Assembly: GCF_002078015.1 (NCBI RefSeq)
Contig: NZ_LWBP01000254.1
Coordinates: forward strand, 62,001-126,000
Source: Niastella populi
GTDB lineage: Bacteria; Bacteroidota; Bacteroidia; Chitinophagales; Chitinophagaceae
Direction: 5' to 3'
Length of the DNA stretch: 64,000 nt
Positions 2,761 to 17,216 of this stretch are shown in pieces; the first letter of the stretch is position 1, and every line of letters starts with the position of its first letter. A model generated the notes under the pieces. It was not told the origin of the DNA. It did no database searches and saw nothing but the letters and a program-made list of their open reading frames with translations. A program made the position numbers and the translations under genes.

Positions 2761-3630
2761 ATGCCTACTCGTCGGGATTTCCTCAGGCAGTCGTCCCTGC
2801 TTACCGCCAGTTTTTTTATCAGTAAAGATGAATGGTTCGCTGCACCAAAAAAGATCGGGCTCCAGCTATATACACTCCGAAATGAAATGGGTAAAGATGC
2901 CAAAGGTACCTTAGCCAAAGTGGCCGCACAGGGTTATAAATGCGTTGAAACCTATGGCTATGACGATGGTAAATGGTTTGGTATGAACGTGGCCGAACTA
3001 AAGGCAACCCTTAAAGCCAATAGGCTTGCCTCCCCAAGCGGCCATACTTTCCCCGGCAGCATATTCTTACAAAACGGCTGGGAAGAAAAGTGGAAACCGG
3101 CAGTTGCCGATGCCAAAGCATTGGGGCAGGAATTCATTGTAATTCCCTGGCTCGAAGAACCATACCGCGCTGATGCCGATAATTATAAAAAAATAGCCGC
3201 CGCACTTAACAAGGCCGGGGAAACATGTAAAAAAACAGGCATAAAGCTCGCCTATCACAACCATGATTTTGAATTGCAGCCGGTTGGAGGTACAACCGGT
3301 TTCGATATCCTGCTGAAAGGAACGGATCCCAAACTGGTTTTCTTTGAAATGGATATTTACTGGGTATCGAAAGCCGGTAAAGACCCGCTGGCCCTGTTTA
3401 CCGAACATCCGGGCCGTTTTGCCATGTGGCATGTAAAGGATATGGACAATACTCCGGCGAAAAACTTTACCGAAGTAGGCAGCGGGGTTATCAACTATAA
3501 AAAGATCTTTAACTACGCCAGACAAAGCGGTATGAAATACTTCTTTGTAGAACAGGATATGTGCCCCGGCGATCCGTTACAAAGTACCGCCAAAAGCATC
3601 GCCTACCTGAAAAAGAATATAGTCAAGTAA
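2761..3630 (+). CDS. Tat-exported sugar phosphate isomerase/epimerase-like TIM barrel
   Basis: A 289-residue AP_endonuc_2/xylose isomerase-like TIM barrel. The N-terminus TRRDFLRQS is a twin-arginine leader, so the enzyme should act outside the cytoplasm. Candidate metal and substrate ligands are Glu63 (VETYGY), His166/His168 (YHNHDF), Glu196/Asp198 (FEMDIYW), His224 (WHVKD) and Glu264 (VEQD). It is 36 bases upstream of a Tat-leader Gfo/Idh/MocA oxidoreductase and is closely similar to the gene at 16344. In this cluster it probably isomerises or cleaves a keto-sugar. The exact substrate is not readable from the sequence. Confidence 0.88.
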   Translation: MPTRRDFLRQSSLLTASFFISKDEWFAAPKKIGLQLYTLRNEMGKDAKGTLAKVAAQGYKCVETYGYDDGKWFGMNVAELKATLKANRLASPSGHTFPGSIFLQNGWEEKWKPAVADAKALGQEFIVIPWLEEPYRADADNYKKIAAALNKAGETCKKTGIKLAYHNHDFELQPVGGTTGFDILLKGTDPKLVFFEMDIYWVSKAGKDPLALFTEHPGRFAMWHVKDMDNTPAKNFTEVGSGVINYKKIFNYARQSGMKYFFVEQDMCPGDPLQSTAKSIAYLKKNIVK

Positions 3631-3666
3631 ACATATTATCCTACAACATTACCTAATACCATTTCT

Positions 3667-4998
3667 ATGATGCAACGAAGGAGATTCCTGAAACAGGCGG
3701 GTACATTGCTTGCCGGGGGTACAGTACTGTCTGCACTCGATAACAACGCATTTGCCATATTCAAAAATCGAATCGCCCCCAGCGACCAGCTGGTTATCGG
3801 TGCCATTGGTATCAATGGCATGGGCTGGGCCAATGTAACTGCGGCCCTGAAAGTACCCGGCGTAACCCTGGGCGCTTTATGCGATGTTGACAAGAACGTG
3901 CTCGATAAAAGAATGGCCGACCTGGCAAAGAAAAATATCGATACATCAAAGGTGAAAACCTATGCCGATTACCGTAAGCTGCTCGATCAGAAAGATATCG
4001 ACATTGTAATTGTTGGTTCGCCCGACCACTGGCATGCCCTGCAAATGATACATGCCTGCGAAGCAGGTAAAGATGTATTTGTAGAAAAACCTGTGGGTAA
4101 CTCAATTATAGAATGCCGCACAATGGTGGCTGCCCAGCAGCGCTACAATAAAGTGGTGCAGGCCGGCCAGTGGCAACGCAGCCAGCAGCATTTTAAAGAT
4201 GCCGTTGATTATGTACAAAGCGGCAAGCTGGGAATGATAAGAACCGTGAAGGTATGGTGCTACCAGGGGTGGATGAAGCCGGCCGCGGTTGTACCCGACA
4301 GTAACCCGCCGGCAGGTGTTGATTATGCTGCCTGGCTGGGGCCAGCCGAGAAACGGCCGTTCAATGCCAGCCGTTTTCATTTTAATTTCCGCTGGTTCTG
4401 GGATTATGCCGGCGGTTTAATGACCGACTGGGGTGTGCACCTGCTCGACTATGCCCTGCTGGGCATGAAAGCCGATGTGCCCAAATCAATTGCCGCACTG
4501 GGCGGTAAATTCGCTTATCCCGATCTGAGCCAGGAAACACCCGATACCCTCACCACGCTGTATGAGTTCGATAAATTCAATCTCGTTTGGGATTCTGCCA
4601 TGGGTATCGACAATGGATCGTACGGCCGAAACCACGGGATCGCGTTTATAGGCAACAATGGCACACTGGTATTGCATCGTGGTGGCTGGGAGGTGTTGGA
4701 AGAGCCGCAAAGCACCAATAAAGCCAGCAAGTCGTTTGTAAAACCATCAGATAACGGATTGAACAATCACTGGGTGAATTTCATCGATGTGGTGAAGTCG
4801 AGGAAGATGGAAGAGCTGAATTGCTCCATTCAGGCCGGGGCGCATGTTGCCACGGTTGCCCAAATGGGTAATATCTCATTCAGAAGCGGGCAACGCCTGG
4901 TGTGGGATAAAGCCAAAGATAAATTTACCGATGAAAAGGTAAACGGTCTGTACCTGGCGAAGGAGTATCATAACGGGTACAAACTTCCGAAGGTGTAA
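3667..4998 (+). CDS. Tat-exported Gfo/Idh/MocA family oxidoreductase
   Basis: 443 residues. Tat leader QRRRFLKQAG at residues 3-12, then a Rossmann fold with GAIGINGMGW (45-54) and the family EKP motif at Glu140-Pro142 (VEKPVGN), followed by the C-terminal Gfo/Idh/MocA sheet domain with the MTDWGVHLLDY signature. NAD(P)-dependent dehydrogenase of a sugar or cyclitol by family. A Tat leader implies that the cofactor is loaded before export and stays tightly bound, as in glucose-fructose oxidoreductase. ATG at 3667 is used; the next Met (3670) is an alternative. Likely co-transcribed with the isomerase upstream. Confidence 0.9.
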   Translation: MMQRRRFLKQAGTLLAGGTVLSALDNNAFAIFKNRIAPSDQLVIGAIGINGMGWANVTAALKVPGVTLGALCDVDKNVLDKRMADLAKKNIDTSKVKTYADYRKLLDQKDIDIVIVGSPDHWHALQMIHACEAGKDVFVEKPVGNSIIECRTMVAAQQRYNKVVQAGQWQRSQQHFKDAVDYVQSGKLGMIRTVKVWCYQGWMKPAAVVPDSNPPAGVDYAAWLGPAEKRPFNASRFHFNFRWFWDYAGGLMTDWGVHLLDYALLGMKADVPKSIAALGGKFAYPDLSQETPDTLTTLYEFDKFNLVWDSAMGIDNGSYGRNHGIAFIGNNGTLVLHRGGWEVLEEPQSTNKASKSFVKPSDNGLNNHWVNFIDVVKSRKMEELNCSIQAGAHVATVAQMGNISFRSGQRLVWDKAKDKFTDEKVNGLYLAKEYHNGYKLPKV

Positions 4999-5006
4999 GT
5001 AATTAA

Positions 5007-5035
5007 GTGTGCCACACCTCAAAGGTGTGGCACAC
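5007..5035. repeat. GTGTGCCACA palindrome, copy A (possible bidirectional terminator)
   Basis: A perfect 13-bp inverted repeat (GTGTGCCACACCT, loop CAA) fills the gap between two convergent genes that end at 4998 and 5041. It is the tightest copy of a family also found at 53668, 62486 and 62986. No T-run follows on either strand, so it is a stable hairpin but not a classical terminator. Confidence 0.75.
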
Positions 5036-5040
5036 CTGCC

Positions 5041-5829
5041 TTATAATTTTCTGATCTTGATATTCCGGTACCATACAGCATTGCCGTGGTCCTGCAGTGC
5101 AATTCTTCCTTTTTGAAAAGAACCGAAGCCTGGCCATTGCTTGAATTTACTGGCGGCTATCATTTTTTTCCAGGCATCATCCCACATCGTAGTGGCGAGC
5201 ACTTTCGTTCCATTCAAATGAAACTCGAGCGCGCCTTTATTCGAGATCACTTCAACCTGGTTCCATTCGCCGACGGGTTTAACCGTTTCGGGTGAGCTGG
5301 TGATAAGATCGTACAGGTCGCCTGTGCGGTGTTTCGTGATCTTTGCATCGGGATGGCCTGCATTATCCAGCACCTGCATTTCGGGGCCGGTATGATAGGT
5401 TTCACCGTATTTCGATCCTTCCTGCACATAGAACATGATACCGCTGTTACCAGCTGGTGCAATCTTCCATTCGAGTTTAAGGTCGAAGTTGTCGTATTCC
5501 TCATTGGTGAGCAGGTCGCCGCCACCAGCTATTTTACCGTCTTTTATATTGGTAGTATCGAGGTACAGGGCGCCATCGCTCACCTGCCAGGCGCTGCCGT
5601 CAGTTTTTTGATTGAACACATGGAAATTGCTTTTTGATGTGCCATCGAAAAGCAGTTGCCATCCTTCATTCTTTTCTGCGTCGGTCAGTTTATTGGTCAT
5701 ATCGGAAGAAGCAGTTGCCATAGTATCTGTTTTTGTTGAGTCGGCTGCCGGTTGTTCTGAACCGCCGTTACCACCCTGGCAACCTGCAATAACGCCTGCA
5801 ATGATCAGGCAAGCAAAAGTTGTGCGCAT
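5041..5829 (-). CDS. DUF1080 (3-keto-disaccharide hydrolase family) lipoprotein
   Basis: 262 residues. Signal peptide with lipobox VIAGC (Cys16), then a low-complexity linker of about 35 residues and one DUF1080 (PF06439) beta-sandwich. Motifs are LLFDGTS, WQVSDGALYLD, GDLLTNEEYDNFDLKLEWK and IALQDHGN near the end. Family members hydrolyse or eliminate 3-keto-glycosides. The lipoprotein would sit in the periplasm or on the cell surface. It is the last gene of the leftward run, 28 bases after its paralogue, and a single-domain copy. The tandem pair may differ in anomer or linkage preference, which is inference. Confidence 0.92.
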   Translation of the reverse strand: MRTTFACLIIAGVIAGCQGGNGGSEQPAADSTKTDTMATASSDMTNKLTDAEKNEGWQLLFDGTSKSNFHVFNQKTDGSAWQVSDGALYLDTTNIKDGKIAGGGDLLTNEEYDNFDLKLEWKIAPAGNSGIMFYVQEGSKYGETYHTGPEMQVLDNAGHPDAKITKHRTGDLYDLITSSPETVKPVGEWNQVEVISNKGALEFHLNGTKVLATTMWDDAWKKMIAASKFKQWPGFGSFQKGRIALQDHGNAVWYRNIKIRKL

Positions 5830-5857
5830 ATGTAGATGATTTTAGTTGAAAAGCGAA

Positions 5858-6577
5858 TTATAACCGCTTGATCTGAATATTTCTGAAGGCTACGCCATTT
5901 CCATGGTCCTGTAAGGCAATGCGGCCTTTACGGAACATGCCAAAGCCGGCCCAGTTCCTGAACTTGCTGTTTGCTATCAGTTGCTTCCAGTTGTCGTCCC
6001 ACATGGTGGTGGCAACTACTTTGGCGCCATTTTGAAAAAGCTCCAGCTGGCCTTTATTGATCCTGATCTCTATTGAATTCCATTGACCCCAGGGATGAAC
6101 ATTTTCAGGAGCACTGGTAATAAGATCGTACAGATCGCCGGCGCGGTGTTTATTGATCTTTGCATCGCGGTGGCCGTTGTTGTCAATGATCTGCATTTCG
6201 GGACCGGTTAAATACGACTGGCCGTATTTAGGATCTTCCTGTGTTAAAAAGATGATGCCGCTGTTACCGGCAGAATCAATTTTCCATTCCAGTTTAAGGT
6301 GGAAATTTTCATACTCTTCATTGGTGACCAGGTCGCCGCCGCCTGCGCCGTTTTTTTTGGCTGCAGGGTCGAGGTATAAAATGCCGTCTTTTACCGTCCA
6401 CGCCGAACCATCGGATTTATTGTTGTAAATATGCCAGGCATTTTTTGAAGTGCCATCGAATAAAACCTGCCAGCCATCCTCTTTCTTTGATGATCCCTTA
6501 GCTGAATCTGTTGTTTTACCGGCGGTGTGGCATGCGAGCGATGCGATCGGAAATAAGGCGATGATTAACTTCTTCAT
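5858..6577 (-). CDS. DUF1080 (3-keto-disaccharide hydrolase family) lipoprotein, paralogue
   Basis: 239 residues with a short signal peptide and lipobox ASLAC (Cys16), followed by a single DUF1080 domain. It shares LLFDGTS-type, GGGDLVTNEEYENFHLKLEW and GRIALQDHGN blocks with the next gene and is clearly a duplicate. It has a shorter linker after the lipid-modified Cys. It lies downstream of the cytochrome c gene, but a hairpin terminator (6600-6625) separates the two. The DUF1080 pair may therefore be expressed at a lower or separate level. Confidence 0.92.
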   Translation of the reverse strand: MKKLIIALFPIASLACHTAGKTTDSAKGSSKKEDGWQVLFDGTSKNAWHIYNNKSDGSAWTVKDGILYLDPAAKKNGAGGGDLVTNEEYENFHLKLEWKIDSAGNSGIIFLTQEDPKYGQSYLTGPEMQIIDNNGHRDAKINKHRAGDLYDLITSAPENVHPWGQWNSIEIRINKGQLELFQNGAKVVATTMWDDNWKQLIANSKFRNWAGFGMFRKGRIALQDHGNGVAFRNIQIKRL

Positions 6578-6599
6578 GTGATTTTGAGCGTAAAAAGAG

Positions 6600-6625
6600 A
6601 CCCCCGCTTTTAAGGGAGCAGGGGT
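6600..6625 (-). terminator. hairpin terminator after cytochrome c gene
   Basis: On the minus strand an ACCCC-GCT / AGC-GGGGT stem with one mismatch is followed by CTCTTTTTA. It lies 9 bases past the stop codon of the cytochrome gene and upstream of the DUF1080 pair, so it probably attenuates read-through. Confidence 0.6.
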
Positions 6626-6633
6626 TGTATGAT

Positions 6634-7023
6634 TTACTGATTTTTTAAAGAGAGAATGTAGCGAACCATTTCTTTTGCGCTGTCTGCGCTCAGTGCGGGG
6701 TGCGGTGTCATTGGCACTGTACCCCAGTTGCCTGAACCACCTTTGATGATCTTATCGGCGAGCATGGTAACGTTCTCTTCTGTTGATTCGTATTTATTCG
6801 CCACTTCGGTATAGGCCGGGCCTATATTTTTTTCGCTGATCTTGTGACAGGTTGTGCAATCAAGCGCACCGATCATTTCCAGGGCTTTATCATTGGCTGC
6901 AGTTGCAGCACCATCCGCTGATGCGTTTTCTGCTGGTTTTTTATCACCGCTTTTTGTGCCATCGGATGAGTTGCAGGCAACCAGTGCTGTACAAAGAGCA
7001 GCAAAAACAACGTATTTCTTCAT
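6634..7023 (-). CDS. monohaem class I cytochrome c lipoprotein
   Basis: 129 residues. Signal peptide ends in lipobox ALVAC (Cys17), then an acidic/Ala-rich linker, then a small cytochrome c domain. It has CTTCH for covalent haem, KNIGPAY after it, and a probable axial Met in PMTPHPA near residue 100. As a membrane-anchored periplasmic electron carrier it is the natural acceptor for the GMC dehydrogenases encoded nearby. That link is inferred from the cluster. It is transcribed leftward with the isomerase at 7080. Confidence 0.9.
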   Translation of the reverse strand: MKKYVVFAALCTALVACNSSDGTKSGDKKPAENASADGAATAANDKALEMIGALDCTTCHKISEKNIGPAYTEVANKYESTEENVTMLADKIIKGGSGNWGTVPMTPHPALSADSAKEMVRYILSLKNQ

Positions 7024-7079
7024 CGAAACAAAAGTTTTAGTTCACAGAATTGTGCAAGTTATATATTTAGCAAATTACA

Positions 7080-8135
7080 TTATTTTAATCCTAAAACCGA
7101 TCTGTTAAATTTTTCATCGCTTCCGGTACCGGCAAAATCATCAAAGGCTTTCTCTGTTACACGTATAATATGGTCCATGATGAACACCGCACCTTCTTTG
7201 GCACCGTCTTCAGGATGTTTGATACAACATTCCCATTCCAGCACCGCCCAGCCGGCATAATCATAAGCGGCCAGTTTGCTGAAGATAGATTTGAAGTCGA
7301 CCTGGCCATCGCCCAGTGAACGGAAACGGCCGGCCCTGTTGATCCAGTTCTGGTAACCGCCATACACGCCCTGTTTACCCGTTGGGTTGAACTCCGCATC
7401 CTTTACATGGAACATGCGGATACGCTCATGATAATTGTCGATGTATTCCAGATAGTCGAGGCATTGCAATACGAAGTGCGATGGATCGTACAGCAAACAG
7501 GCCCTTGGATGGTTATTGGTATGCTGCAGGAACATTTCGTAGGAGATACCATCGTGCAGGTCTTCCCCGGGATGGATCTCATAACAAAGGTCAACACCGT
7601 TCTCATCGAAGGTGTTCAGGATGGGCAGCCAGCGGTTGGCCAGTTCTTTAAATCCTGTTTCAACCAAACCTGCCGGGCGTTGGGGCCAGGGATAAACCGT
7701 AGGCCATAACAGCGCGCCGCTAAAAGTGGCATGCGCGTTCAATCCCAGGTTTTGAGAGGCTTTGGCTGCGAATTGTAATTGCTGAACGGCCCATTCGGTG
7801 CGGGCCCTGGGATTGTTGCGGAATTTTTCCGGGGCAAACCCATCGAACAGCGTATCGTAAGCAGGGTGAACGGCTACAAGCTGTCCCTGCAGGTGGGTTG
7901 ACAGCTCCGTTATTTCAAGACCGATCTCATTCACGATGCCTTTTATTTCATCTGCATAGGTTTTGCTTTCGGCGGCTTTTTGCAGATCGATGCAACGGCT
8001 GTCCCAGGTAGGGATCTGCACACCTGCAAAGCCAAGGCCTTTTGCCCACTGGCAAATTGATTTCAGTGAATTGAATGGTGGCTGATCGCCCATGAACTGG
8101 GCGAGGAATAATCCGGGTCCTTTTAACGTTTTCAT
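7080..8135 (-). CDS. cytosolic sugar isomerase/epimerase-like TIM barrel
   Basis: 351 residues, no signal peptide, so cytosolic. AP_endonuc_2-type TIM barrel with likely metal ligands in ELSTHLQGQ, YEIHPGED, YDPSHF, FHVKDAE and LEWEC. The N-terminus GPGLFLAQFMGDQPPFNSL and the long loop are typical of the subgroup encoded beside Gfo/Idh/MocA glucoside 3-dehydrogenases. Here it follows such a gene (8229-9395) on the same strand. The likely role is isomerising or cleaving a 3-keto sugar made or handled by its partner. DgpC-type deglycosidases belong to the same fold family, but I cannot assign that activity. Confidence 0.88.
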   Translation of the reverse strand: MKTLKGPGLFLAQFMGDQPPFNSLKSICQWAKGLGFAGVQIPTWDSRCIDLQKAAESKTYADEIKGIVNEIGLEITELSTHLQGQLVAVHPAYDTLFDGFAPEKFRNNPRARTEWAVQQLQFAAKASQNLGLNAHATFSGALLWPTVYPWPQRPAGLVETGFKELANRWLPILNTFDENGVDLCYEIHPGEDLHDGISYEMFLQHTNNHPRACLLYDPSHFVLQCLDYLEYIDNYHERIRMFHVKDAEFNPTGKQGVYGGYQNWINRAGRFRSLGDGQVDFKSIFSKLAAYDYAGWAVLEWECCIKHPEDGAKEGAVFIMDHIIRVTEKAFDDFAGTGSDEKFNRSVLGLK

Positions 8136-8228
8136 TAAATGGCGCTTTGAGATTTGGAAATTGAAATTAGGTATCAGGAGCCAGCCTTGTGCAGCCTGGC
8201 ATCAATGGTTTGCGTTTTGTGACGATTA

Positions 8229-9395
8229 TCACACCTCAAACAACGTCCACTTCTCTTTGCTTGCGCTGCTCTTAACAACGTTATCGATAAACGCCATACC
8301 GCGAACGCCTTCTTCAACACGTGGGAAGTCGAGCATTTCTTTCGTCGGCTGCCCGCCATCGATATGTGCAGATAATGTCAAAGCAAAGTTGCGATAGATA
8401 TTGCCAAATGCTTCGAGGTAACCTTCGGGGTGACCGCCCGGGGTGCGGCAGTTATGCGTTGCAAAAGACGACAATACGCCGGTATAGTTTGCGCCCGCGC
8501 GTAAGATCTGCGTCGGTTGATCGAGCCATTTGGCAATGAGGGTATTGGGTTCATGCTGCGCCCATTCTACGCCACCCAGCTCGCCATAAATGCGGATCTT
8601 TAAAGCGTTCTCTTCGCCGGCGGCTATCTGAGAAGCAACCAAAACGCCTGCTGCGCCATTATCGAATTTTAATAGCACATTACCATCATCATCGAGATGG
8701 CGGCCTTCTACCATTGTATTCAGGTCGGCACAAAGATGTGTGATCTTCAAACCGGTGATATATTCAGTAAGGTGAGCGGCATGCGTACCTATATCGCCCA
8801 TACAACCGCTCTTACCTGATTTTTTGGGATCGGTTCTCCACGCAGCCTGCGCATTGCCTTCGCGTTCCGACAAACGGCTTAACCAGCCCTGCGGATATTC
8901 AACAATTACTTTTCTTACTTTACCCAATGCACCGCCCTGTACCATGGCGCGCGCCTGTTTAACCATCGGGTAGCCGGAGTAGGTATGTGTAAGGCACAGT
9001 TGCAAACCTGTTTCTTCAACTTTTTTGCTTAACTGTTTAGCTTCGTCGAGCGTAAAGGTCATTGGCTTTTCTATCACCACGTGAAAGCCATGATCGAGCG
9101 CCATCATAGCAGGAGCAAAGTGTGCGAAGTTGGGCGTAACGATGGTTACGAAATCCATACGTTTATCGGCCGGTAACTTGCTTTCTGCCCTGATCATATC
9201 TTCATAATTGGTATATATGCGGTCTTCGGGCAGGAATAACATTTTTCCTGATGCAATGGCCACGTCAGGATTTACACTTAATGCTCCGCAGGATAGTTCA
9301 ATAAGTCCATCCATATTGGCAGCAATGCGGTGAACAGCGCCGATAAAGGCATCTTTGCCTCCACCTACCATTCCCATTCTTAATTTTCTGTTCAT
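8229..9395 (-). CDS. cytosolic Gfo/Idh/MocA oxidoreductase, candidate glycoside 3-dehydrogenase
   Basis: 388 residues without a leader. It begins with the dinucleotide-binding motif MVGGGKDAFIGAVHR, a variant characteristic of the DgpA/3-keto-glucoside subgroup of Gfo/Idh/MocA enzymes. EKP is present (VVIEKPMTF), with a C-terminal alpha/beta domain containing GDIGTHAAHL. By family it interconverts a hydroxyl at C3 of a glucoside and its ketone using NAD(P). First gene of the leftward run toward 5041. The 175-base divergent gap to the MFS gene shows no exact TAnnTTTG box on either strand. Confidence 0.9.
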   Translation of the reverse strand: MNRKLRMGMVGGGKDAFIGAVHRIAANMDGLIELSCGALSVNPDVAIASGKMLFLPEDRIYTNYEDMIRAESKLPADKRMDFVTIVTPNFAHFAPAMMALDHGFHVVIEKPMTFTLDEAKQLSKKVEETGLQLCLTHTYSGYPMVKQARAMVQGGALGKVRKVIVEYPQGWLSRLSEREGNAQAAWRTDPKKSGKSGCMGDIGTHAAHLTEYITGLKITHLCADLNTMVEGRHLDDDGNVLLKFDNGAAGVLVASQIAAGEENALKIRIYGELGGVEWAQHEPNTLIAKWLDQPTQILRAGANYTGVLSSFATHNCRTPGGHPEGYLEAFGNIYRNFALTLSAHIDGGQPTKEMLDFPRVEEGVRGMAFIDNVVKSSASKEKWTLFEV

Positions 9396-9570
9396 GAAAT
9401 ATTAATTAGAAAATGTGAAAAAGGATTTGTTTTGAAATAAAAAATTACATTTACATGCTTATTTGAATCTAACGAATTTACAATTGCGTTCGATAAAGTT
9501 ACGGTGGTTCGGTAAAAACTTTAAAAAATATCAATTACCAACCATATATTAACCAAAAAGATTTCTTGCC

Positions 9571-10878
9571 ATGCAACAACCAACGTTCAATCGCGGCCAG
9601 CTTTTCTGGGCCAGTTGTTTAGCTCTTTTAGTAACCTCTTTATCTTTCGGCATCCGCGCCGGTATCTTAAGCGAATTAGGTACAAAATTCCATCTCAACG
9701 CCTCTCAATTAGGTACCATAGCCGCAACCGCTTTCTGGGGTTTTCCATTGGCCGTTATTATTGGTGGAATGGTAGTGGATGCCATCGGGATGAAAAAATT
9801 ATTGCTGCTCGCCTGTTTGTTTCATGCTGCAGGTATTTTATTGACCGTGTTTGCCAGCGGGTACTGGCCCCTGTTCCTTTCCACTTTATTGATAGGAATA
9901 GCGAACGGTACTGTTGAAGCTGCCTGTAACCCGTTGGTAGCAGCTATTTACCCTGATAATAAAACCACGAAATTAAATCATTTCCACCTCTGGTTCCCCG
10001 GCGGAATTGTAATAGGCACACTCATCGTGTTCCTTTATAATAAAGCGGGTATTGGTTCTATAGGTAGATGGGAACCCTGGCAGATACAGGTGGCCGTAAT
10101 GCTTATACCAACGTTAATTTATGGTTATATGGTAAGCCGGTTGAAATTCCCCGTAACAGAGCGCGTGGCGGCAGGGGTATCAACCGGGGAAATGTATAAA
10201 TCATTATTGAACCCGCTGTTCATTTTCATGATCATTTGCATGTTCGGTACAGCGATCACCGAATTGTTTACCGGCCAGTGGATCGATGTATTATTGAAGA
10301 ATGTAACCGACAATGCCATACTGATACTTACCCTCGAAACGGGTGTAATGGTAATTGGCCGCGGTCTTGCCGAACCTGTAGTGCATCGTTTATCACCGCA
10401 GGGTGTATTGCTCATTTCGGCGGTACTTTCTGCATTGGGTATTTATTTGCTGGGCCACACTACCGGCAACATGGTTTTCGTAGGCGCCCTTATATTCGGT
10501 ATGGGGGTTTGTTACTTCTGGCCAACCATGCTGGGTTTTGTTTCGGAGAACCTTCCCAAAACAGGAGCGGTAGGCCTGAACCTGATGGGTGGTGCAGGAA
10601 TGTTTGCCGTGTCAATTTATATGATGTTCATGGGAAGCCACTACGATAAACTGTTGGGCGAAAAATTACCAGCCGATGCCGAGCTGAAAGTTTATACCGA
10701 TGCACCTGCCGGATCTGAAATGGCCAATGCGCTTGCAGAAGCGAAAAAAGCGGCCGGTCCGCAAATATTGGATACTACCCTGGTTATTCCAATAATACTG
10801 GTAGTGGCATTTGCGGCATTAGTATTCTACATGCGGGGCAGAAAGAAGGCCGAACAGTTAACACCTGTTAGCGCATAA
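9571..10878 (+). CDS. MFS sugar transporter
   Basis: 435 residues with about 12 transmembrane segments in two halves and a loop of about 60 residues before the last helix. The N-terminal half has the MFS motif A-like GGMVVDAIGMKKLL. The extended IANGTVEAACNPLVAAIYP segment resembles the FucP/nucleoside-type sugar permeases common in Bacteroidota. Divergent from the Gfo/Idh/MocA operon and upstream of the isomerase and GMC genes. It most likely imports the keto-sugar or monosaccharide released in the periplasm, which is an inference. Confidence 0.9.
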   Translation: MQQPTFNRGQLFWASCLALLVTSLSFGIRAGILSELGTKFHLNASQLGTIAATAFWGFPLAVIIGGMVVDAIGMKKLLLLACLFHAAGILLTVFASGYWPLFLSTLLIGIANGTVEAACNPLVAAIYPDNKTTKLNHFHLWFPGGIVIGTLIVFLYNKAGIGSIGRWEPWQIQVAVMLIPTLIYGYMVSRLKFPVTERVAAGVSTGEMYKSLLNPLFIFMIICMFGTAITELFTGQWIDVLLKNVTDNAILILTLETGVMVIGRGLAEPVVHRLSPQGVLLISAVLSALGIYLLGHTTGNMVFVGALIFGMGVCYFWPTMLGFVSENLPKTGAVGLNLMGGAGMFAVSIYMMFMGSHYDKLLGEKLPADAELKVYTDAPAGSEMANALAEAKKAAGPQILDTTLVIPIILVVAFAALVFYMRGRKKAEQLTPVSA

Positions 10879-10980
10879 TAGTATTATCTTAACCTTTTGT
10901 AATATTTTAACGTCTGCGGTTCTACATTTAAACGATTTTGTGAGAACAATTTGTAAATTTCAATCTTAACATTTATAAAC

Positions 10981-11871
10981 ATGGCCAATCAATCGCGGCG
11001 AGTTGCCATTAAAAACCTGGTAGCGGGTACTGCCGCCCTGGGTACCGCAAATATGCTTTCGTCTTTTACCACTCCCGAAGAAACTAAATCAACCGCCTTG
11101 AAAGGAAATATCAACCATGCTGTGTGCCGCTGGTGCTACAGTTCTATTCCACTGGATGAATTTGCTGCTGCTGCCAAAAAAATGGGAATCAGCGCAATTG
11201 ACCTCGTTGGCCCCAAAGACTGGCCTGTTTTGAAACAACACGGTCTGTTCTCTTCCATGTGCAACGGTGCAGAAATAAACCTGGTAGACGGCTGGAACGA
11301 TAAAAAATTCCACACACAACTGATAAAGAACTATACCGAAATGATTCCCCTGGTTGCAAAAGCTGGGTATAAAAACCTTATTTGCTTCAGCGGAAACCGG
11401 CGCGGTATAGACGATGAAACCGGGTGGAACAATTGTGCAGAAGGTTTGAAACAGGTCATGAGCATCGCCGAAAAGAATAATGTGGTTCTTGTAATGGAAC
11501 TGCTAAACAGTAAAGTAAACCACAAAGACTACCAGTGCGATAAAACCGCCTGGGGCGTGGAACTGGCAAAACGCATAGGATCGGAGAACTTCAAATTATT
11601 GTACGACATCTATCATATGCAGATAGATGAGGGTGATGTCATTCGCACCATCAAAGACAATCACCAATACATTGCGCATTACCATACCGGCGGTGTTCCG
11701 GGCAGAAATGAAATTGACGAAACGCAGGAACTGTATTACCCGGCCATCATGAAGGCCATTCTCGAAACCGGGTTCAAAGGTTATGTGGCGCAGGAGTTCA
11801 TACCGGCCCGCAAAACGAATGAAGAAAAGCTGGTATCGCTTGAAAAAGCGATTAAGATCTGTGATGTATAG
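10981..11871 (+). CDS. Tat-exported hydroxypyruvate isomerase-like TIM barrel
   Basis: 296 residues. Leader NQSRRVAIKNLVAGTAA fits a Tat signal. The TIM barrel carries ligand candidates Glu in VMELLNS, Asp/His in YDIYHMQ, His in YHTGGVPGR and Glu in VAQEF. This is the hydroxypyruvate/keto-sugar isomerase pattern. It sits 52 bases before the first GMC gene and 103 bases after the MFS gene. AAACGATT occurs in its leader (10930-10937). The substrate is unknown; export suggests that it acts on a periplasmic keto-sugar. Confidence 0.87.
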   Translation: MANQSRRVAIKNLVAGTAALGTANMLSSFTTPEETKSTALKGNINHAVCRWCYSSIPLDEFAAAAKKMGISAIDLVGPKDWPVLKQHGLFSSMCNGAEINLVDGWNDKKFHTQLIKNYTEMIPLVAKAGYKNLICFSGNRRGIDDETGWNNCAEGLKQVMSIAEKNNVVLVMELLNSKVNHKDYQCDKTAWGVELAKRIGSENFKLLYDIYHMQIDEGDVIRTIKDNHQYIAHYHTGGVPGRNEIDETQELYYPAIMKAILETGFKGYVAQEFIPARKTNEEKLVSLEKAIKICDV

Positions 11872-11922
11872 TACCTGTTATTAATTCTCACGTCTTTCTT
11901 TTTAAATAAAAACGATTGAACT

Positions 11923-13602
11923 ATGGCAGATAATGTTTATGATGCTATTGTAGTTGGCTCGGGTATCAGTGGCGGCTGGGCTGCAAAAGAGCTTACCGAA
12001 AAAGGATTGAAAGTATTGTTGCTTGAACGCGGCGAAAATATTGAACATATAAAAGGTTACGAAAACGCCAATAAAGCCCCCTGGGAATTTCCACATCGCG
12101 GCGGCAAAACCCAGGAAATGATAAAGGACTATCCCGTATTGAACAGGGATTATCCGCTCAATGAAACCAACCTCAATTACTGGACAAACGAAAAGGATTG
12201 TCCGTATACCGAAACAAAACGGTTCGACTGGTTTCGCGGTTATCACGTTGGCGGCCGTTCGCTGATGTGGGGCCGTCAAAGCTATCGCTTTAGCGATCTC
12301 GATTTTGAAGCGAACGCCAAAGAAGGCACAGCCGTAGACTGGCCTATCCGCTATAGAGAAATAGCGCCCTGGTACGATTATGTTGAAAAATTCGCCGGCA
12401 TCAGCGGCAGCAAGGAAGGTCTTGCCGTGCTTCCCGACGGACAATTTCAACCGGGCATGGAACTGAACTGTGTTGAAAAAGATGTAGCTGCCCGCCTTAA
12501 AGAACACTACAAGGGATCGCGACATCTATTTATAGGCCGGGTGGCCAATATTACGCAGGAATTACCGGGTAGAACCAAATGCCAGTTCCGTAACAAGTGC
12601 TGGCTGGGTTGTCCGTTCGGCGGTTATTTCAGCACACAGTCCTCTACATTACCGGCAGCCATGGCAACCGGCAATCTTACGCTGCGTCCTTTCTCTATTG
12701 TAACAAAAGTGTTGTACGATAAAGACAAGAAAAAAGCCACCGGTGTAGAAGTGATGGATGCACAGGAAAATAAGACCTACGAGTTCAAATCGAAAGTGGT
12801 TTTCCTTTGCGCTTCGGCTTTCAACAGTACCTGGGTGCTGTTCAATTCCGCCACCGACATATGGCCCGGCGGTTTGGGCAGCAGCAGCGGCGAATTGGGC
12901 CACAATGTTATGGACCACCATTTCAGAGTAGGCGCCGAAGGAATTGCTGAAGGGTACGAAGACAAATACTATTTCGGCCGCCGGCCAACAGGCTTCTATA
13001 TACCGCGTTTCCGCAATGTTGGCAGCGATAAAAGAGATTATACCCGTGGTTTCGGCTACCAGGGTGGCGCCAGCCGCCAGGGTTGGAACCGCCTGATCGC
13101 TGAAATGAATATTGGCGCCGAACTGAAGAACGCATTGACAGAGCCAGGCCCCTGGTCGATGGGGATGACCGCCTTCGGTGAAATACTGCCTTACCACGAA
13201 AACAAGATCTCGCTCGATAAAACGAAAAAAGACAAATGGGGCCTTCCCGTTCTGGCCATCGACTGTGAATTGAAGGAGAATGAAAAGAAAATGCGCGTCG
13301 ATATGAAAAACGATGCCATTGAAATGCTCACAGCCGCCGGATTGAAGGACGTAAAAGGCACTGAAAGTGATTACTTCATGGGCATGGGCATTCATGAAAT
13401 GGGTACGGCCCGGATGGGTAAAGACCGTAAAACATCGGTGCTCAATGCGCACAACCAGGTTTGGGACGCGCCCAACGTATACGTAACAGACGGCGCCTGC
13501 ATGACCTCCGCCGCCTGCGTAAACCCTTCACTTACATACATGGCATTGACGGCCCGCGCCGCCGAACATGCTGTGAGTGAATTAAAGAAAGGTAACATAT
13601 AA
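11923..13602 (+). CDS. GMC-family flavoprotein sugar dehydrogenase, large subunit 1
   Basis: 559 residues, no leader of its own. FAD-binding GSGISGGW near residues 12-19, conserved HVGGRSLMWGRQ block, and the C-terminal HEMGTARMG (His491) with NPSLTYMALT that carries the GMC active-site His/Asn. Cys220-x5-Cys226-x3-Cys230 (KCQFRNKCWLGCP) matches the spacing of the [3Fe-4S] ligands in bacterial FAD-glucose dehydrogenase alpha subunits. Closely similar to the gene at 13822. Export probably occurs by hitchhiking on the Tat small subunit (15669). Expected activity is sugar C3 (or C2) oxidation with electrons going to cytochrome c. Confidence 0.92.
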   Translation: MADNVYDAIVVGSGISGGWAAKELTEKGLKVLLLERGENIEHIKGYENANKAPWEFPHRGGKTQEMIKDYPVLNRDYPLNETNLNYWTNEKDCPYTETKRFDWFRGYHVGGRSLMWGRQSYRFSDLDFEANAKEGTAVDWPIRYREIAPWYDYVEKFAGISGSKEGLAVLPDGQFQPGMELNCVEKDVAARLKEHYKGSRHLFIGRVANITQELPGRTKCQFRNKCWLGCPFGGYFSTQSSTLPAAMATGNLTLRPFSIVTKVLYDKDKKKATGVEVMDAQENKTYEFKSKVVFLCASAFNSTWVLFNSATDIWPGGLGSSSGELGHNVMDHHFRVGAEGIAEGYEDKYYFGRRPTGFYIPRFRNVGSDKRDYTRGFGYQGGASRQGWNRLIAEMNIGAELKNALTEPGPWSMGMTAFGEILPYHENKISLDKTKKDKWGLPVLAIDCELKENEKKMRVDMKNDAIEMLTAAGLKDVKGTESDYFMGMGIHEMGTARMGKDRKTSVLNAHNQVWDAPNVYVTDGACMTSAACVNPSLTYMALTARAAEHAVSELKKGNI

Positions 13603-13606
13603 AACA

Positions 13607-13665
13607 GAATGTGATAATTCGATAATTGGATAATCCCGCAAAGCGGGACAGGTTGTGATAATGCA
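13607..13665. repeat. GATAAT-rich repeat with GC hairpin
   Basis: Just after the first GMC gene, copies of GTGATAAT/GATAAT flank a perfect 6-bp hairpin TCCCGC-AAA-GCGGGA (13634-13648). A similar arrangement with a CAGGG-AAA-CCCTG hairpin lies at 17735-17778. The rest of the 219-base gap holds reverse-oriented copies (13787-13817) and no gene. Confidence 0.6.
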
Positions 13666-13786
13666 TCCATTTCGAAGAGAATAATTAAAAGCCGGCAGTT
13701 TGTTGTTGAAAAGACAATTAAAAAAATTATTTAAATTACATGCTGCCATATTATAAATTGAAATCGTCTATAATCCTGTATTTCAA

Positions 13787-13817
13787 TTATCACATTTTCG
13801 AGTTATCACATTATCAA
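13787..13817. repeat. GTGATAAT repeats, reverse orientation
   Basis: Two ATTATCACATT-type units lie immediately before the start of the second GMC gene. They are inverted relative to the units at 13607, so the gap between the two GMC genes is bounded by a loose inverted repeat. Confidence 0.5.
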
Positions 13818-13821
13818 ATTA

Positions 13822-15543
13822 GTGAACATGCCGGGAGACTCTTTAAACGTACACCTAAACACAAAAGCGACTACACAAAATACGTATGATGCCATTGTAG
13901 TAGGTTCAGGTATAAGTGGTGGCTGGGCCGCCAAGGAATTATGCGAAAAAGGTTTGAAAACACTGGTGCTGGAACGGGGTAGAAATGTTGAACACATTAA
14001 AGACTATGCGGGAACAGAAAAGAACATCTGGGAACTGCCCCACCATTTGAAACAAACTGAAGAAGATAAAAAGAATAGTCCCATTCAAAGCAAGTGTTAT
14101 GCTTATGATGAGGTTTCTAAAAAGTTCTTTGTCAACGATATAGAGAATCCATATACCCAGGTTAAAAAGTTCTGGTGGATCCGTGGTTACCATGTGGGCG
14201 GCCGCTCACTGATGTGGGGCCGTCAAAGCTATCGCTGGAGCGACCTCGACTTTGAAGCCAATGCAAAAGACGGGCATGGGGTCGACTGGCCCATTCGCTA
14301 CAAAGACCTGGCATCGTGGTACAGTTATGTAGAGAAGTTCGCCGGTATAAATGGTAATAAAGATGGCCTCGCGCATTTGCCCGATGGGGAGTTTTTACCT
14401 GCAATGGAAATGAATTGCCTCGAAAAGCATGTGGCTGCCAGCTTAAAGCAGAATTATTCTGACCGGGTAATGATCATGGGCCGTTCTGCCAACCATACAA
14501 AACAGGTGGGTGATCGCGGTCCGTGCCAGTATCGCAATAAATGCCACCAGGGTTGTCCGTTCGGAGGTTATTTCAGCAGTAATTCGGCTACCCTGCCTGC
14601 TGCCAAAGCCACCGGAAATCTTACCCTGCGGCCAAACTCGATAGTGCTCGACGTACTGTACGATAAAGATAAAAGGCGGGCTACCGGCGTACGCATCCTC
14701 GATGCGGAAACCATGAAAACCGAAGAGTATTATGCCAAAATAGTATTCCTGAACGCTTCTACCCTTGGCACTGCACAAATTCTGTTACACTCCGTGTCGG
14801 ATGTTTTCCCGAATGGTTTTGGTAACAGCAGCCAGCAGGTAGGCCATAACCTTATGGACCACCACTACGGAGTGGGCGCCAGAGGAGAATACGAGGGCTT
14901 CGCCGATCAGTATTATTATGGCAGAAGACCGAATGGTATATATGTTCCGCGTTTCAGGAATGTGAACGACCGTACAAAACGCAGCGATTATGTACGCGGT
15001 TTTGGTTACCAGGGCGGCGCTCAGCGCGGAAGAGTAAGTAACGCAGATGGAATAGGTATTGAACTGAAAGAAGCGCTTACCGAACCCGGTAACTGGACGA
15101 TGCAACTGGGCTCATGGGGCGAACACTTACCCTATTATGAGAACAAGGTAACATTGAACAAAGACAAAAAAGATAAATACGGGCTGCCAACGCTCGATAT
15201 CGATTGTGAGTTCAGGGAAAATGAAAAGATCATGCGCAAAGACATGATAGATAGTGCGGCAGAGATGTTGGAAAAAGCAGGACTGAAAAACGTAAAAACA
15301 TTCGATAACGATCCGCCGCCCGGATTTTGTATCCACGAAATGGGTACGGCCCGGATGGGAAGAGATCCTAAAACATCTGTGCTGAACGGCAATAACCAGA
15401 TGCATGATGTAAAGAATGTGTTCATTACCGATGGCGCATGTATGTCATCATCGGCCTGCCAGAACCCATCGTTAACGTATATGGCGCTTACGGCAAGAGC
15501 TGCTGATTTTGCGGTGAATGAATTGAAGAAAGGAAACCTGTAA
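13822..15543 (+). CDS. GMC-family flavoprotein sugar dehydrogenase, large subunit 2
   Basis: 573 residues, paralogue of the preceding gene. It shares VVGSGISGGWAAKEL, HVGGRSLMWGRQSY, CX5CX3C (Cys235, Cys241, Cys245) and HEMGTARMG (His505). An N-terminal extension of about 15 polar residues and an extra insertion near residues 80-100 distinguish it. No signal peptide. The gene for the small subunit follows 125 bases downstream. The presence of two large subunits suggests either two substrate specificities or alternative complexes with one small subunit. Confidence 0.92.
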   Translation: MNMPGDSLNVHLNTKATTQNTYDAIVVGSGISGGWAAKELCEKGLKTLVLERGRNVEHIKDYAGTEKNIWELPHHLKQTEEDKKNSPIQSKCYAYDEVSKKFFVNDIENPYTQVKKFWWIRGYHVGGRSLMWGRQSYRWSDLDFEANAKDGHGVDWPIRYKDLASWYSYVEKFAGINGNKDGLAHLPDGEFLPAMEMNCLEKHVAASLKQNYSDRVMIMGRSANHTKQVGDRGPCQYRNKCHQGCPFGGYFSSNSATLPAAKATGNLTLRPNSIVLDVLYDKDKRRATGVRILDAETMKTEEYYAKIVFLNASTLGTAQILLHSVSDVFPNGFGNSSQQVGHNLMDHHYGVGARGEYEGFADQYYYGRRPNGIYVPRFRNVNDRTKRSDYVRGFGYQGGAQRGRVSNADGIGIELKEALTEPGNWTMQLGSWGEHLPYYENKVTLNKDKKDKYGLPTLDIDCEFRENEKIMRKDMIDSAAEMLEKAGLKNVKTFDNDPPPGFCIHEMGTARMGRDPKTSVLNGNNQMHDVKNVFITDGACMSSSACQNPSLTYMALTARAADFAVNELKKGNL

Positions 15544-15668
15544 GTCAATTAGCTGATGTGATAATGTTTTTATGCGGGGCTCAAAAGTAATGTAAGCCAG
15601 GTTGAACGGCTAAAAGTTGTTTTTAATAATCAAATTCTCAAAACGATTCATACTTCAAATTAATAATT

Positions 15669-16244
15669 ATGAACAGAAGAGACGCATTATCCCGTGTTGC
15701 TTTGTTGTTGGGGGGAACGGTGATCGGGGCTGAATTCTTTCTGAGCGGTTGCACCAGTTCCGATAAAAAGGTTGGACAGTCTGTTGACTTTACTGCTGAC
15801 GATATTGCTTACCTTGATGAAGTAGCGGAGACAATTATCCCTGCTACCGATACGCCCGGCGCCAAAGCTGCGAAGGTGGGTACATTCATGACCGTTATGG
15901 TAAAAGACTGCTATGATGAAAAGAACCAGAAAGTATTTCTGGATGGCATGAATAAGATCAACGAAGACAGCAGGAAAAAATTCGGTGGCAACGCATTTAT
16001 GAAGATCACCCCCGAACAACGCAAACAACTGCTGACCGAACTCGACAAAGAACAAAAAGAACACGCAAAGAATAAAAATAAAGAAGACGATCCGCACTTC
16101 TTTACATTGATGAAACAGTTGACCCTGTTGGGTTACTTCACTTCTGAACCCGGCGCTACACAGGCATTGCGCTATGTGCCGGTTCCCGGCCGCTTCGATG
16201 CGTGCATTCCTTATAAAAAAGGCGACAAAGCCTGGGCCTTATAA
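15669..16244 (+). CDS. gluconate 2-dehydrogenase subunit 3-type Tat lipoprotein
   Basis: 191 residues. The leader combines NRRDALSRV (twin arginine) with a lipobox LSGC at Cys28, so the product is a Tat lipoprotein. The body fits the gluconate 2-dehydrogenase subunit 3 family (PF13618): AYLDEVAETIIPATDTPGA, then helical KITPEQRKQLL, ending RFDACIPYKKGDKAW. In known systems this subunit exports and anchors the leaderless GMC catalytic subunit. AAAACGATT lies at 15640-15648 in its leader. It is the only small-subunit gene seen for the two GMC genes. Confidence 0.92.
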   Translation: MNRRDALSRVALLLGGTVIGAEFFLSGCTSSDKKVGQSVDFTADDIAYLDEVAETIIPATDTPGAKAAKVGTFMTVMVKDCYDEKNQKVFLDGMNKINEDSRKKFGGNAFMKITPEQRKQLLTELDKEQKEHAKNKNKEDDPHFFTLMKQLTLLGYFTSEPGATQALRYVPVPGRFDACIPYKKGDKAWAL

Positions 16245-16265
16245 AAATTTTACATATTGAATTAT

Positions 16266-16309
16266 AAATGATGAATGTAGAAGTGAAATCACTTTGGCAT
16301 TCATCATTT
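16266..16309. repeat. nested palindrome containing the GAATGTAGAAGTGAA repeat
   Basis: Outer perfect 12-bp arms AAATGATGAATG (16266-16277) and CATTCATCATTT (16298-16309) enclose a 5-bp AAGTG/CACTT hairpin. GTAG overlaps the junction and directly precedes the inner hairpin. The 15-mer GAATGTAGAAGTGAA (16273-16287) recurs exactly at 19955-19969 and, inverted, at 50373-50387. It lies between two same-strand genes and may terminate or stabilise transcripts. Confidence 0.7.
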
Positions 16310-16343
16310 GATGTTTTACAGGATTAAATAAACAACCAATTTC

Positions 16344-17216
16344 ATGCAGAACAGAAGAAGTTTTCTCAAAGCAACCGGAACACTGGCGTCGGGGTTATTA
16401 ATCGGAAGATCGGCCTTCTCTATGGATGACTTTGCATCCAAAGGAAGCATTAAAAAATTTGGTTTGCAGTTGTATTCCCTCCGCACCGATTTGCCGAACG
16501 ATCCCAAAGGCGTATTGAAACAGGTAGCTTCCTTTGGCTATAAACAAATTGAAAGCTATGAAGGCAAGCAGGGTATGTTTTGGGGTATGAGCAATAAAGA
16601 GTTCAAAAAATATATGGATGAACTGGGCATGACCATCGTTTCGAGCCATTGTAATATCAACAATGATTTCGAAACAAAGGCAGCGCAGGCCGGTGAAATA
16701 GGGATGAAATATTTGATTTGTCCGAGCCTTGGCGGTGCAAACAAGTCGCTCGATGATTTTAAAAGGGCTGCTGAAAAGTTCAATGCCTGCGGCGAGATCT
16801 GTAAAAAGAACGGATTGAAGTTCGCCTATCACAATCATGGCTACAGCTTTGAAACAATGGAAGGCCAGTTACCGCAGGATATATTGATGCAAAACACCAA
16901 CAAAGACACTGTTGATTTTGAAATGGATATTTACTGGGTGGTAACTGCCGGTGCAGATCCTATTGCCTGGCTGGACAAATATCCCGGCCGCTGGAAACTG
17001 TGCCATGTGAAAGACAGGAAAAAAGATGCCGCTGCCGGCGATCACGATGCATCGATCGACCTGGGGGTAGGCAATATCGATTTCAAAAAGATCCTGAAAG
17101 CCAGCACTTCAAAAGGCATGGAATATTTCATCGTTGAGCAGGAGCGTTATGATAACAGCACCCCGCTGAAAAGCGCTGCCGCAGATGCGGCGTATATGAA
17201 GAAGCTGAAGTTGTAA
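16344..17216 (+). CDS. Tat-exported sugar isomerase/epimerase-like TIM barrel, paralogue
   Basis: 290 residues, similar along its length to the gene at 2761. Twin-arginine leader QNRRSFLKATGTLAS, then a TIM barrel with YHNHGYSFE, DFEMDIYWV, CHVKDR and VEQERY as likely metal/substrate sites. The terminal gene of the rightward sugar run; a strong terminator follows at 17239. The two exported paralogues bracket the whole cluster, which supports reading 2761-17216 as one functional unit. Confidence 0.88.
   Translation: MQNRRSFLKATGTLASGLLIGRSAFSMDDFASKGSIKKFGLQLYSLRTDLPNDPKGVLKQVASFGYKQIESYEGKQGMFWGMSNKEFKKYMDELGMTIVSSHCNINNDFETKAAQAGEIGMKYLICPSLGGANKSLDDFKRAAEKFNACGEICKKNGLKFAYHNHGYSFETMEGQLPQDILMQNTNKDTVDFEMDIYWVVTAGADPIAWLDKYPGRWKLCHVKDRKKDAAAGDHDASIDLGVGNIDFKKILKASTSKGMEYFIVEQERYDNSTPLKSAAADAAYMKKLKL

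Follow-up and report, generated by a model that had tools for sequence, protein, structure and literature searches.

A Niastella populi gene block predicted to encode an oxidation-elimination-hydration-reduction route for glycosides, split across the inner membrane

The closest described counterpart of the gene block analysed here is the GlycDH-AtOGE-AtHYD-Gfo system of Agrobacterium tumefaciens, in which GlycDH combines a flavoenzyme with a protein of the twin-arginine translocation (Tat) pathway, AtOGE (PDB 8BVK) is a 3-keto-O-glucoside beta-eliminase of the TIM-barrel fold, and preliminary evidence links the hydratase and the Gfo protein to the conversion of the glycal into glucose (PMC10628242). 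In Caulobacter crescentus, genes described as clustered, and as important for lactose use in fitness data, encode the exported dehydrogenase LacABC, the PF06439 protein CCNA_01705, a transporter, a reductase, and two epimerases (Price et al. 2022, PMC9007349). In a Pedobacter, a member of the Bacteroidota, a putative lactose dehydrogenase is reported to be important on several glycosides, lactose and salicin among them (PMC9007349). The BT2157/BT2158 system of Bacteroides thetaiotaomicron pairs a PF06439 protein with a periplasmic Gfo dehydrogenase (PMC9007349, PMC11300592), and the levoglucosan enzymes LgdA/B1/B2/C of Bacillus smithii are a four-enzyme precedent for oxidation, elimination, hydration, and reduction, with another substrate, an NAD-linked first step, and no exported enzyme mentioned in the part of the report available to us (PMC7676230). 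Here, we analysed a 64,000-nucleotide stretch of Niastella populi (contig NZ_LWBP01000254.1, positions 62,001 to 126,000; hereafter the window), in which a block of 13 genes at positions 2761-17216 is predicted, with good confidence, to encode a glycoside pathway of oxidation, elimination, hydration, and reduction with steps on both sides of the inner membrane.

Such a pathway is already known and widespread, and the block is a good example of it. With the A. tumefaciens system, whose GlycDH we take to belong to the GMC family, the block shares by sequence a flavin dehydrogenase (a putative glycoside 3-dehydrogenase) with a Tat-leader partner, a TIM barrel with AtOGE-like eliminase residues, a hydratase, and a Gfo/Idh/MocA (Gfo) protein; it differs in that its predicted eliminases carry Tat leaders and in that PF06439 lipoproteins, a cytochrome c lipoprotein, a major facilitator superfamily (MFS) carrier, two GMC subunits, and a further Tat-leader TIM barrel are added. 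The likeness to the Caulobacter cluster is one of description only. The BT2157/BT2158 system presumably also has TIM barrels and, to our knowledge, has no GMC/PF13618/cytochrome route, and the Tat-leader Gfo protein of the window falls far under the BT_2158 cut-off, as detailed below. Nearly the same cassette is present, annotated by family only, on plasmids of Hymenobacter volaticus (NZ_CP095062.1, L147) and Xanthomonas sacchari (NZ_CP010410.1, L150), which differ in having one GMC gene, a "nucleoside permease" in place of the MFS carrier, a distant PF06439 protein (23%) and, in Xanthomonas, a distant Gfo protein.

In the proposed pathway, two alternative GMC subunits, exported by the Tat PF13618 lipoprotein, would oxidize C3 of the glycoside, with electrons from flavin adenine dinucleotide (FAD) reaching the cytochrome c lipoprotein over a [3Fe-4S] cluster. 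The 3-keto-glycoside would then be cleaved outside by the AtOGE-like TIM barrels, through beta-elimination, and the PF06439 lipoproteins, to give the aglycone and 2-hydroxy-3-keto-glucal and/or 3-keto-glucose, to judge from homology and active-site residues. The MFS carrier is supposed to import the cleavage product, after which the cytosolic hydratase, on strong homology, would convert the glycal to 3-keto-glucose and the cytosolic Gfo protein would reduce the latter to glucose. The initial annotation of this DNA had proposed exported oxidation and cleavage with cytosolic finishing, a division that the leaders described below bear out; the chemistry is revised here to a probable beta-elimination by AtOGE-like TIM barrels followed by a hydratase and a predicted reductase.

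The cytosolic arm is anchored by the product of 7080-8135, which matches PDB 8ro4, deposited as 2-hydroxy-3-keto-glucal hydratase and presumably the Agrobacterium enzyme, with 591.6 bits over residues 1-350 (Table 1), and is 71.7% identical to a plasmid-encoded protein of A. tumefaciens labelled "sugar phosphate isomerase/epimerase." On this strong homology we assign it as a 2-hydroxy-3-keto-glucal hydratase. It is the only copy in the genome at E 1e-10, and because of this single hydratase, together with the lone and distant second match (28%) of the TIM barrel encoded at 10981-11871, the block is likely to be the sole exit for 2-hydroxy-3-keto-glucal in the genome, if the glycal is formed. 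Searching GTDB species genomes with the hydratase as query returned at least 586 relatives, of which the best 80 loci are used for the counts given here; this set is weighted toward Bacteroidota and close kin, has full flanks in 49 of the 80, includes related species that are not independent events, and counts a gene as present at a tblastn E of 1e-6, weak matches included. A Gfo relative lies within the hydratase stretch in 76 of these 80 loci. The Gfo protein of 8229-9395, from which the peptide MVGGGKDAFIGAVHR quoted in the initial annotation derives (residues 9-23), has as its best solved relative 3v5n, named just "Oxidoreductase." The hydratase on a plasmid of Halomonas sp. PA16-9 (L146:9001-10051) was matched in two pieces, its frame seemingly broken.

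The exported cleavage step is assigned to the TIM barrels at the two ends of the block, which are 36% identical to each other, in agreement with the earlier description of the block as bounded by paralogous isomerases. The AtOGE structure (8bvk) matches the 2761 TIM barrel at E 2.5e-24 and, more weakly, the 16344 TIM barrel, while 8tct matches the former at E 1.2e-34 and 8tcd the latter (Table 1). The metal site of AtOGE is reported to consist of His132, Asp163, His189 and, weakly, Glu233, with His134 as the base (PMC10628242). In the 2761 protein, H166, H168, E196, D198, H224, and E264 correspond, in this order, to AtOGE His132, His134, Glu161, Asp163, His189, and Glu233, and in the 16344 protein the equivalents of His132, His134, Asp163, His189, and Glu233 are H163, H165, D195, H221, and E265, with spacings in both proteins within four residues of those in AtOGE. 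The alignment used a Pelagibacterium relative (L133) in place of AtOGE, which shows the same HxH, E-x-D, and H, the last Glu being one column off. Among complete copies of the 2761 type, the equivalents of His132, His134, Asp163, His189, and Glu233 are kept in 45, 45, 45, 45, and 44 of 45 and that of Glu161 in 40 of 45, and in the 16344 type all five and the Glu161 equivalent are each kept in 38 of 38. Both proteins are thus deemed candidate AtOGE-like 3-keto-glycoside beta-eliminases, and the combination of such exported TIM barrels with an 8ro4-like hydratase makes beta-elimination outside, followed by hydration and reduction inside as in Agrobacterium, the most likely course of cleavage.

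Leaders in the window proteins were inspected by eye, with no signal-peptide program. Twin-arginine (RR) motifs were recognized in the products of 2761, 3667, 10981, 15669, and 16344 and lipobox-like cysteines in the PF06439 pair (IAGC and SLAC), the cytochrome (LVAC), and the PF13618 subunit (LSGC), whereas the products of 7080 and 8229, GMC1, and GMC2 have no leader. The families and leaders named in the initial annotation for the 13 genes agree with Pfam and with these N-termini. Relatives were counted over complete copies in the fetched loci, taking RR within the N-terminal 25-40 residues and start codons picked mechanically: an RR leader is present in 74 of 76 proteins of the 10981 type, in 37 of 38 proteins of one eliminase-like type and 44 of 45 of the other, and in every PF13618 subunit (84 of 84). 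Among hydratases it is seen in 1 of 105, among Gfo proteins of the cytosolic type in 4 of 105, and among GMC proteins in 0 of 123. The Xanthomonas and Paracoccus versions show the same pattern by eye: the hydratase and Gfo protein start without a leader, and one is present on the TIM barrels, the PF06439 proteins, and the PF13618 subunit. The split between proteins with and without a leader is conserved among complete relatives. The leaderless GMC subunits are presumably carried out by the PF13618 subunit, by analogy with BcGDH, for which export of the catalytic subunit on a hitchhiker subunit has been proposed (PMC6719666).

For GMC2, the one of the two that was queried, the solved proteins closest in sequence are fructose dehydrogenase (FDH; E 9e-38) and FAD glucose dehydrogenase (FAD-GDH; E 6.1e-30). 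Two features of the FAD-GDH/FDH type are present in the block, the hitchhiker subunit and the cysteine spacing of a [3Fe-4S] cluster: the motif C-x5-C-x3-C occurs in GMC1, GMC2 (Table 1), and 123 of 123 complete relatives, and matches the spacing of the ligands Cys212, Cys218, and Cys222 reported for BcGDH (PMC6719666). Both the cytochrome of the window and 62 of 62 complete relatives have a single CxxCH, whereas the cytochrome subunit of FAD-GDH and FDH complexes has three hemes; we infer that electrons pass from the GMC subunits to this lipoprotein. No match to the PF13618 subunit was found by sequence in the PDB at E 0.1; a hitchhiker subunit has been solved within the BcGDH complex (PMC6719666). 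One PF13618 gene accompanies 3, 4, 4, and 5 GMC genes in L034, L041, L061, and L040, respectively, which fits and suggests interchangeable GMC catalytic subunits on a single export partner. Tandem arrays of four to five GMC genes with one PF13618 gene lie at approximately L040:8238-17940, L041:6672-13800, and L061:2092-9050.

All 13 open reading frames of the block are intact, with zero internal stops, and run rightward at 2761 and 3667, leftward from 5041 to 9395, and rightward again from 9571 to 17216. Pfam assigns four of the products to PF01261, two each to GFO_IDH_MocA, PF06439, and GMC_oxred, and one each to Cytochrom_C, MFS_1, and PF13618. Of the matches in the 8.6-Mb genome, the block accounts for 1 of 2 PF13618, 2 of 4 GMC_oxred_C, 4 of 9 PF01261 (over cut-off), and 2 of 12 PF06439. 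When nine PF01261 genes were placed randomly, a single trial among 200,000 brought four of them together inside 14,456 bases, and when four GMC genes were so placed, two fell together in 3,999 of 200,000. Given these genome-wide counts and trials, the clustering is not due to chance. No match was obtained in Rfam (gathering scores) or tRNA scans of the window. Immediately upstream, at 1263-2466, an extracytoplasmic function (ECF)-type sigma factor (PF04542, PF08281) and, after it, a protein that matches no Pfam family are kept in 9 of 9 same-genus regions, a regulatory link to the block being only conceivable. Near its left edge, at 89-691, the window encodes a protein with an IS200-like Y1 transposase domain (PF01797, 23.3 bits, cut-off 23).

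Table 1. Genes of the Niastella populi block, with predicted functions (positions in the window)
Feature	Position	Strand	Evidence
Tat-leader TIM barrel (PF01261), AtOGE-like 3-keto-glycoside beta-eliminase candidate	2761..3630	+	8bvk/8tct matches, site residues, RR leader
Tat-leader Gfo/Idh/MocA oxidoreductase, distant relative of BT_2158 glycoside 3-dehydrogenase	3667..4998	+	Pfam, NCBIfam, 8tdf
PF06439 (DUF1080, 3keto-disac_hyd) lipoprotein	5041..5829	-	Pfam E 6.7e-48, lipobox IAGC
PF06439 lipoprotein, 62% identity to neighbour 5041..5829	5858..6577	-	Pfam, lipobox
Cytochrome c lipoprotein, single CxxCH	6634..7023	-	Pfam, lipobox LVAC
Leaderless TIM barrel, 2-hydroxy-3-keto-glucal hydratase by sequence	7080..8135	-	8ro4 E 5.7e-177, residues 1-350 of 351
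Leaderless Gfo/Idh/MocA, predicted 3-keto-glucose reductase	8229..9395	-	Pfam, 3v5n E 5.6e-106
MFS carrier, predicted importer of periplasmic product	9571..10878	+	PF07690
Tat-leader TIM barrel, epimerase-like fold	10981..11871	+	fold comparison, co-occurrence with GMC
GMC1, leaderless flavin dehydrogenase catalytic subunit	11923..13602	+	Pfam, C-x5-C-x3-C at 220
GMC2, leaderless flavin dehydrogenase catalytic subunit, 61% identity to GMC1	13822..15543	+	Pfam, C-x5-C-x3-C at 235
PF13618 Tat lipoprotein small (hitchhiker) subunit	15669..16244	+	Pfam E 2e-42, RR and lipobox
Second AtOGE-like eliminase candidate, Tat-leader TIM barrel	16344..17216	+	8tcd E 3.5e-36, 8bvk E 1.5e-13, site residues

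Having the whole set in one block had been called unusual, and a check of neighbourhood conservation had been proposed; the check was run, and its outcome leads us to reject the block as a rare assembly. A protein search of 59 genomes (the own genome and relatives) with GMC2 at E 1e-60 found relatives in 31, and 34 regions were taken around the matches, three of which are other GMC sites of the own or a same-genus genome; some records of these regions and of the best 80 loci are probably the same contig, e.g., L059 and L071, each 60,209 bases long. All 13 genes are present in the same order in 9 of 9 same-genus regions, and in 13 of the 25 other GMC-centred regions GMC is accompanied by PF13618, the hydratase, Gfo, and a 10981-type TIM barrel. 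Among the best 80 loci, 43 have the six-gene core of GMC, PF13618, Gfo, hydratase, 10981 type, and cytochrome within the stretch; 34 of these add an AtOGE-like TIM barrel, 28 of the latter also PF06439, and 5 of those an MFS relative. Similar cassettes lie on plasmids outside Bacteroidota: those of X. sacchari, Palleronia, and Paracoccus carry hydratase, Gfo, the 10981 type, GMC (72-73%), PF13618, PF06439, and an AtOGE-like TIM barrel, and smaller gene sets are found in Ketogulonicigenium and Novosphingobium. No title or abstract describing this cluster in Chitinophagaceae was found in the literature, subscription papers lying largely outside the search. In the same-genus regions L047 and L049, the MFS gene between the arms (L047:10677, L049:10482) encodes a protein of 48% and 53% identity, compared with 88-92% in the other seven, and looks swapped. 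A second form of the hydratase locus occurs in Chitinophaga (L116:7476-16488), with MFS, Gfo, hydratase, cytochrome, PF06439, ThuA, and a 1134-aa fusion of ThuA, glucose/sorbosone dehydrogenase, PKD, and cytochrome c in this order, the GMC and 10981 type being absent; gene order is similar in L079, L082, L103, L107, and L111, domains having been scanned in L116 only. It looks like another oxidation module leading to the same exit.

Several observations weigh against the proposed pathway. Oxidation at C3 by the GMC enzymes is inferred from the downstream and neighbouring genes only, and the solved relatives of the FAD-GDH/FDH type oxidize C1 of glucose or C5 of fructose. A GMC match is absent from 30 of the best 80 hydratase loci, partly through contig ends, and the plasmid stretches of A. 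tumefaciens, Sinorhizobium meliloti, and Halomonas have hydratase and Gfo and no GMC gene, that of Halomonas, with 70.7% identity, lying elsewhere on the same plasmid. GMC records of Rhizobium among the matches reach about 32% identity; they were rejected as the same enzyme on the one neighbourhood examined, that in L153, which has neither hydratase nor PF13618. No annotated cytochrome c gene is present in the Palleronia and Paracoccus stretches, and the Xanthomonas Gfo protein is 29% identical to that of 8229-9395. Transport is the weakest link of the pathway, as the MFS carrier is poorly conserved (present in 23 of the best 80 loci and in 5 of the 28 fullest), and a cytosolic hydratase is compatible with import of either the glycal or the 3-keto-glycoside. 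In another reading, 3-keto-glycosides enter the cell whole and are cut there by a hydratase with eliminase activity as well, while the exported TIM barrels serve other substrates. LgdB2 has been suggested to perform both elimination and hydration (PMC7676230), and an ATP-binding cassette (ABC) sugar importer lies inside the Palleronia and Paracoccus blocks, but the leaders on the eliminase-like TIM barrels are conserved and the A. tumefaciens hydratase is reported to be inactive on 3-keto-phlorizin (PMC10628242), which makes this course improbable.

Who performs the main cleavage is a closer matter. The PF06439 lipoproteins, whose family the initial annotation took to act on 3-keto-glycosides, might be the main cleavers, turning 3-keto-disaccharides into 3-keto-glucose outside and leaving the TIM barrels to epimerize or to serve other keto-sugars; we consider this somewhat unlikely. 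The family is named 3-keto-disaccharide hydrolase and is tied to 3'-ketolactose breakdown, including by the genetics of CCNA_01705, with BT2157 cited as a 3-ketotrehalose hydrolase (Price et al., PMC9007349). A PF06439 match is present in 55 of the best 80 loci, 40 with GMC and 15 without, some at just 22-25% identity. However, 3-keto-glucose as the sole product would need no cytosolic hydratase, of which the block has a relative, and the eliminase residues are intact in the TIM barrels. None of ten Pedobacter PF06439 genes is reported to have a lactose phenotype, redundancy being possible (PMC9007349), a result that also counts against our own scheme. The main step is probably taken by the AtOGE-like TIM barrels, and the PF06439 proteins probably assist them in cleavage or take other substrates. 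The nearest solved relatives of GMC2 would also accommodate a free-aldose dehydrogenase of the FAD-GDH/FDH type, acting at C1 or C2 among unrelated sugar genes, but a GMC match lies near the hydratase in 50 of the best 80 loci (a few of them weak) and in several Proteobacteria, and a 2-hydroxy-3-keto-glucal hydratase requires a 3-keto precursor; we regard this possibility as very remote.

The Tat-leader Gfo protein of 3667-4998 had been labelled DgpA-type, a label that turns out to be weak: its match to solved DgpA proteins (E 2.1e-13 and 4.3e-10) is below that to 8tdf (E 1.3e-30), and its best NCBIfam match, the BT_2158 equivalog NF058561, scores 169 bits against a cut-off of 750. Its gene is present in 9 of 9 same-genus regions, but it was rejected as a core member, since L088 alone among the best 80 loci has a close copy (66-81%), the remaining matches being at about 25-34%. 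It looks like an add-on together with the 2761 TIM barrel.

The third Tat-leader TIM barrel, encoded at 10981-11871, goes together with the GMC genes. Among the best 80 loci, 47 have both, 27 neither, and 3 and 3 one alone, so that 74 of 80 agree, and it adjoins a GMC gene in distant bacteria (Xanthomonas, Palleronia, Paracoccus). The HxH motif of AtOGE is missing at the corresponding place. Its structural model (mean predicted local distance difference test score 86.6, residues 1-36 unreliable) is closest in fold to D-psicose/D-tagatose 3-epimerases, a Brucella "AP endonuclease, family 2" protein, and Escherichia coli YcjR, at 14-24% identity. YcjR (6wn6), a 3-keto-D-glucoside 4-epimerase, gives template modeling (TM) scores of 0.70/0.78, many epimerases scoring alike, and a weak match by sequence (E 0.0026); DgpB-C, a C-glycoside cleaving complex, stands at rank 29 of the fold list. 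All of the 76 complete relatives share E173, D209, H212, H235, R242, and E272, and by comparison with psicose epimerase we take E173, D209, H235, and E272 to form an epimerase-type Glu-Asp-His-Glu site. These likenesses weakly suggest that the protein probably epimerizes or isomerizes a 3-keto intermediate. Two Daejeonella copies (L098:2796-3605 and L105:1892-2671) lack the Tat leader, either through a start-site problem or as a cytosolic form.

A more specific role, which we offer as speculative and rather doubtful, would be that of a periplasmic epimerase beside the GMC enzymes that converts 3-keto-galactosides and further epimers to 3-keto-glucosides ahead of cleavage, making the cassette a broad-range funnel; the protein may instead be an isomerase or a further eliminase. 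If it is such an epimerase, one hydratase and one reductase would give glucose from many glycosides, and the swappable GMC subunits on one small subunit would add to this range; the fate of 3-ketogalactose, left open by Price et al. (PMC9007349), would become a question about one exported TIM barrel. More generally, genes publicly labelled "sugar phosphate isomerase," "Gfo/Idh/MocA," and "DUF1080" receive a testable assignment here. Glycoside breakdown without hydrolysis, linked to the respiratory chain, is further predicted to be a common route in Bacteroidota.

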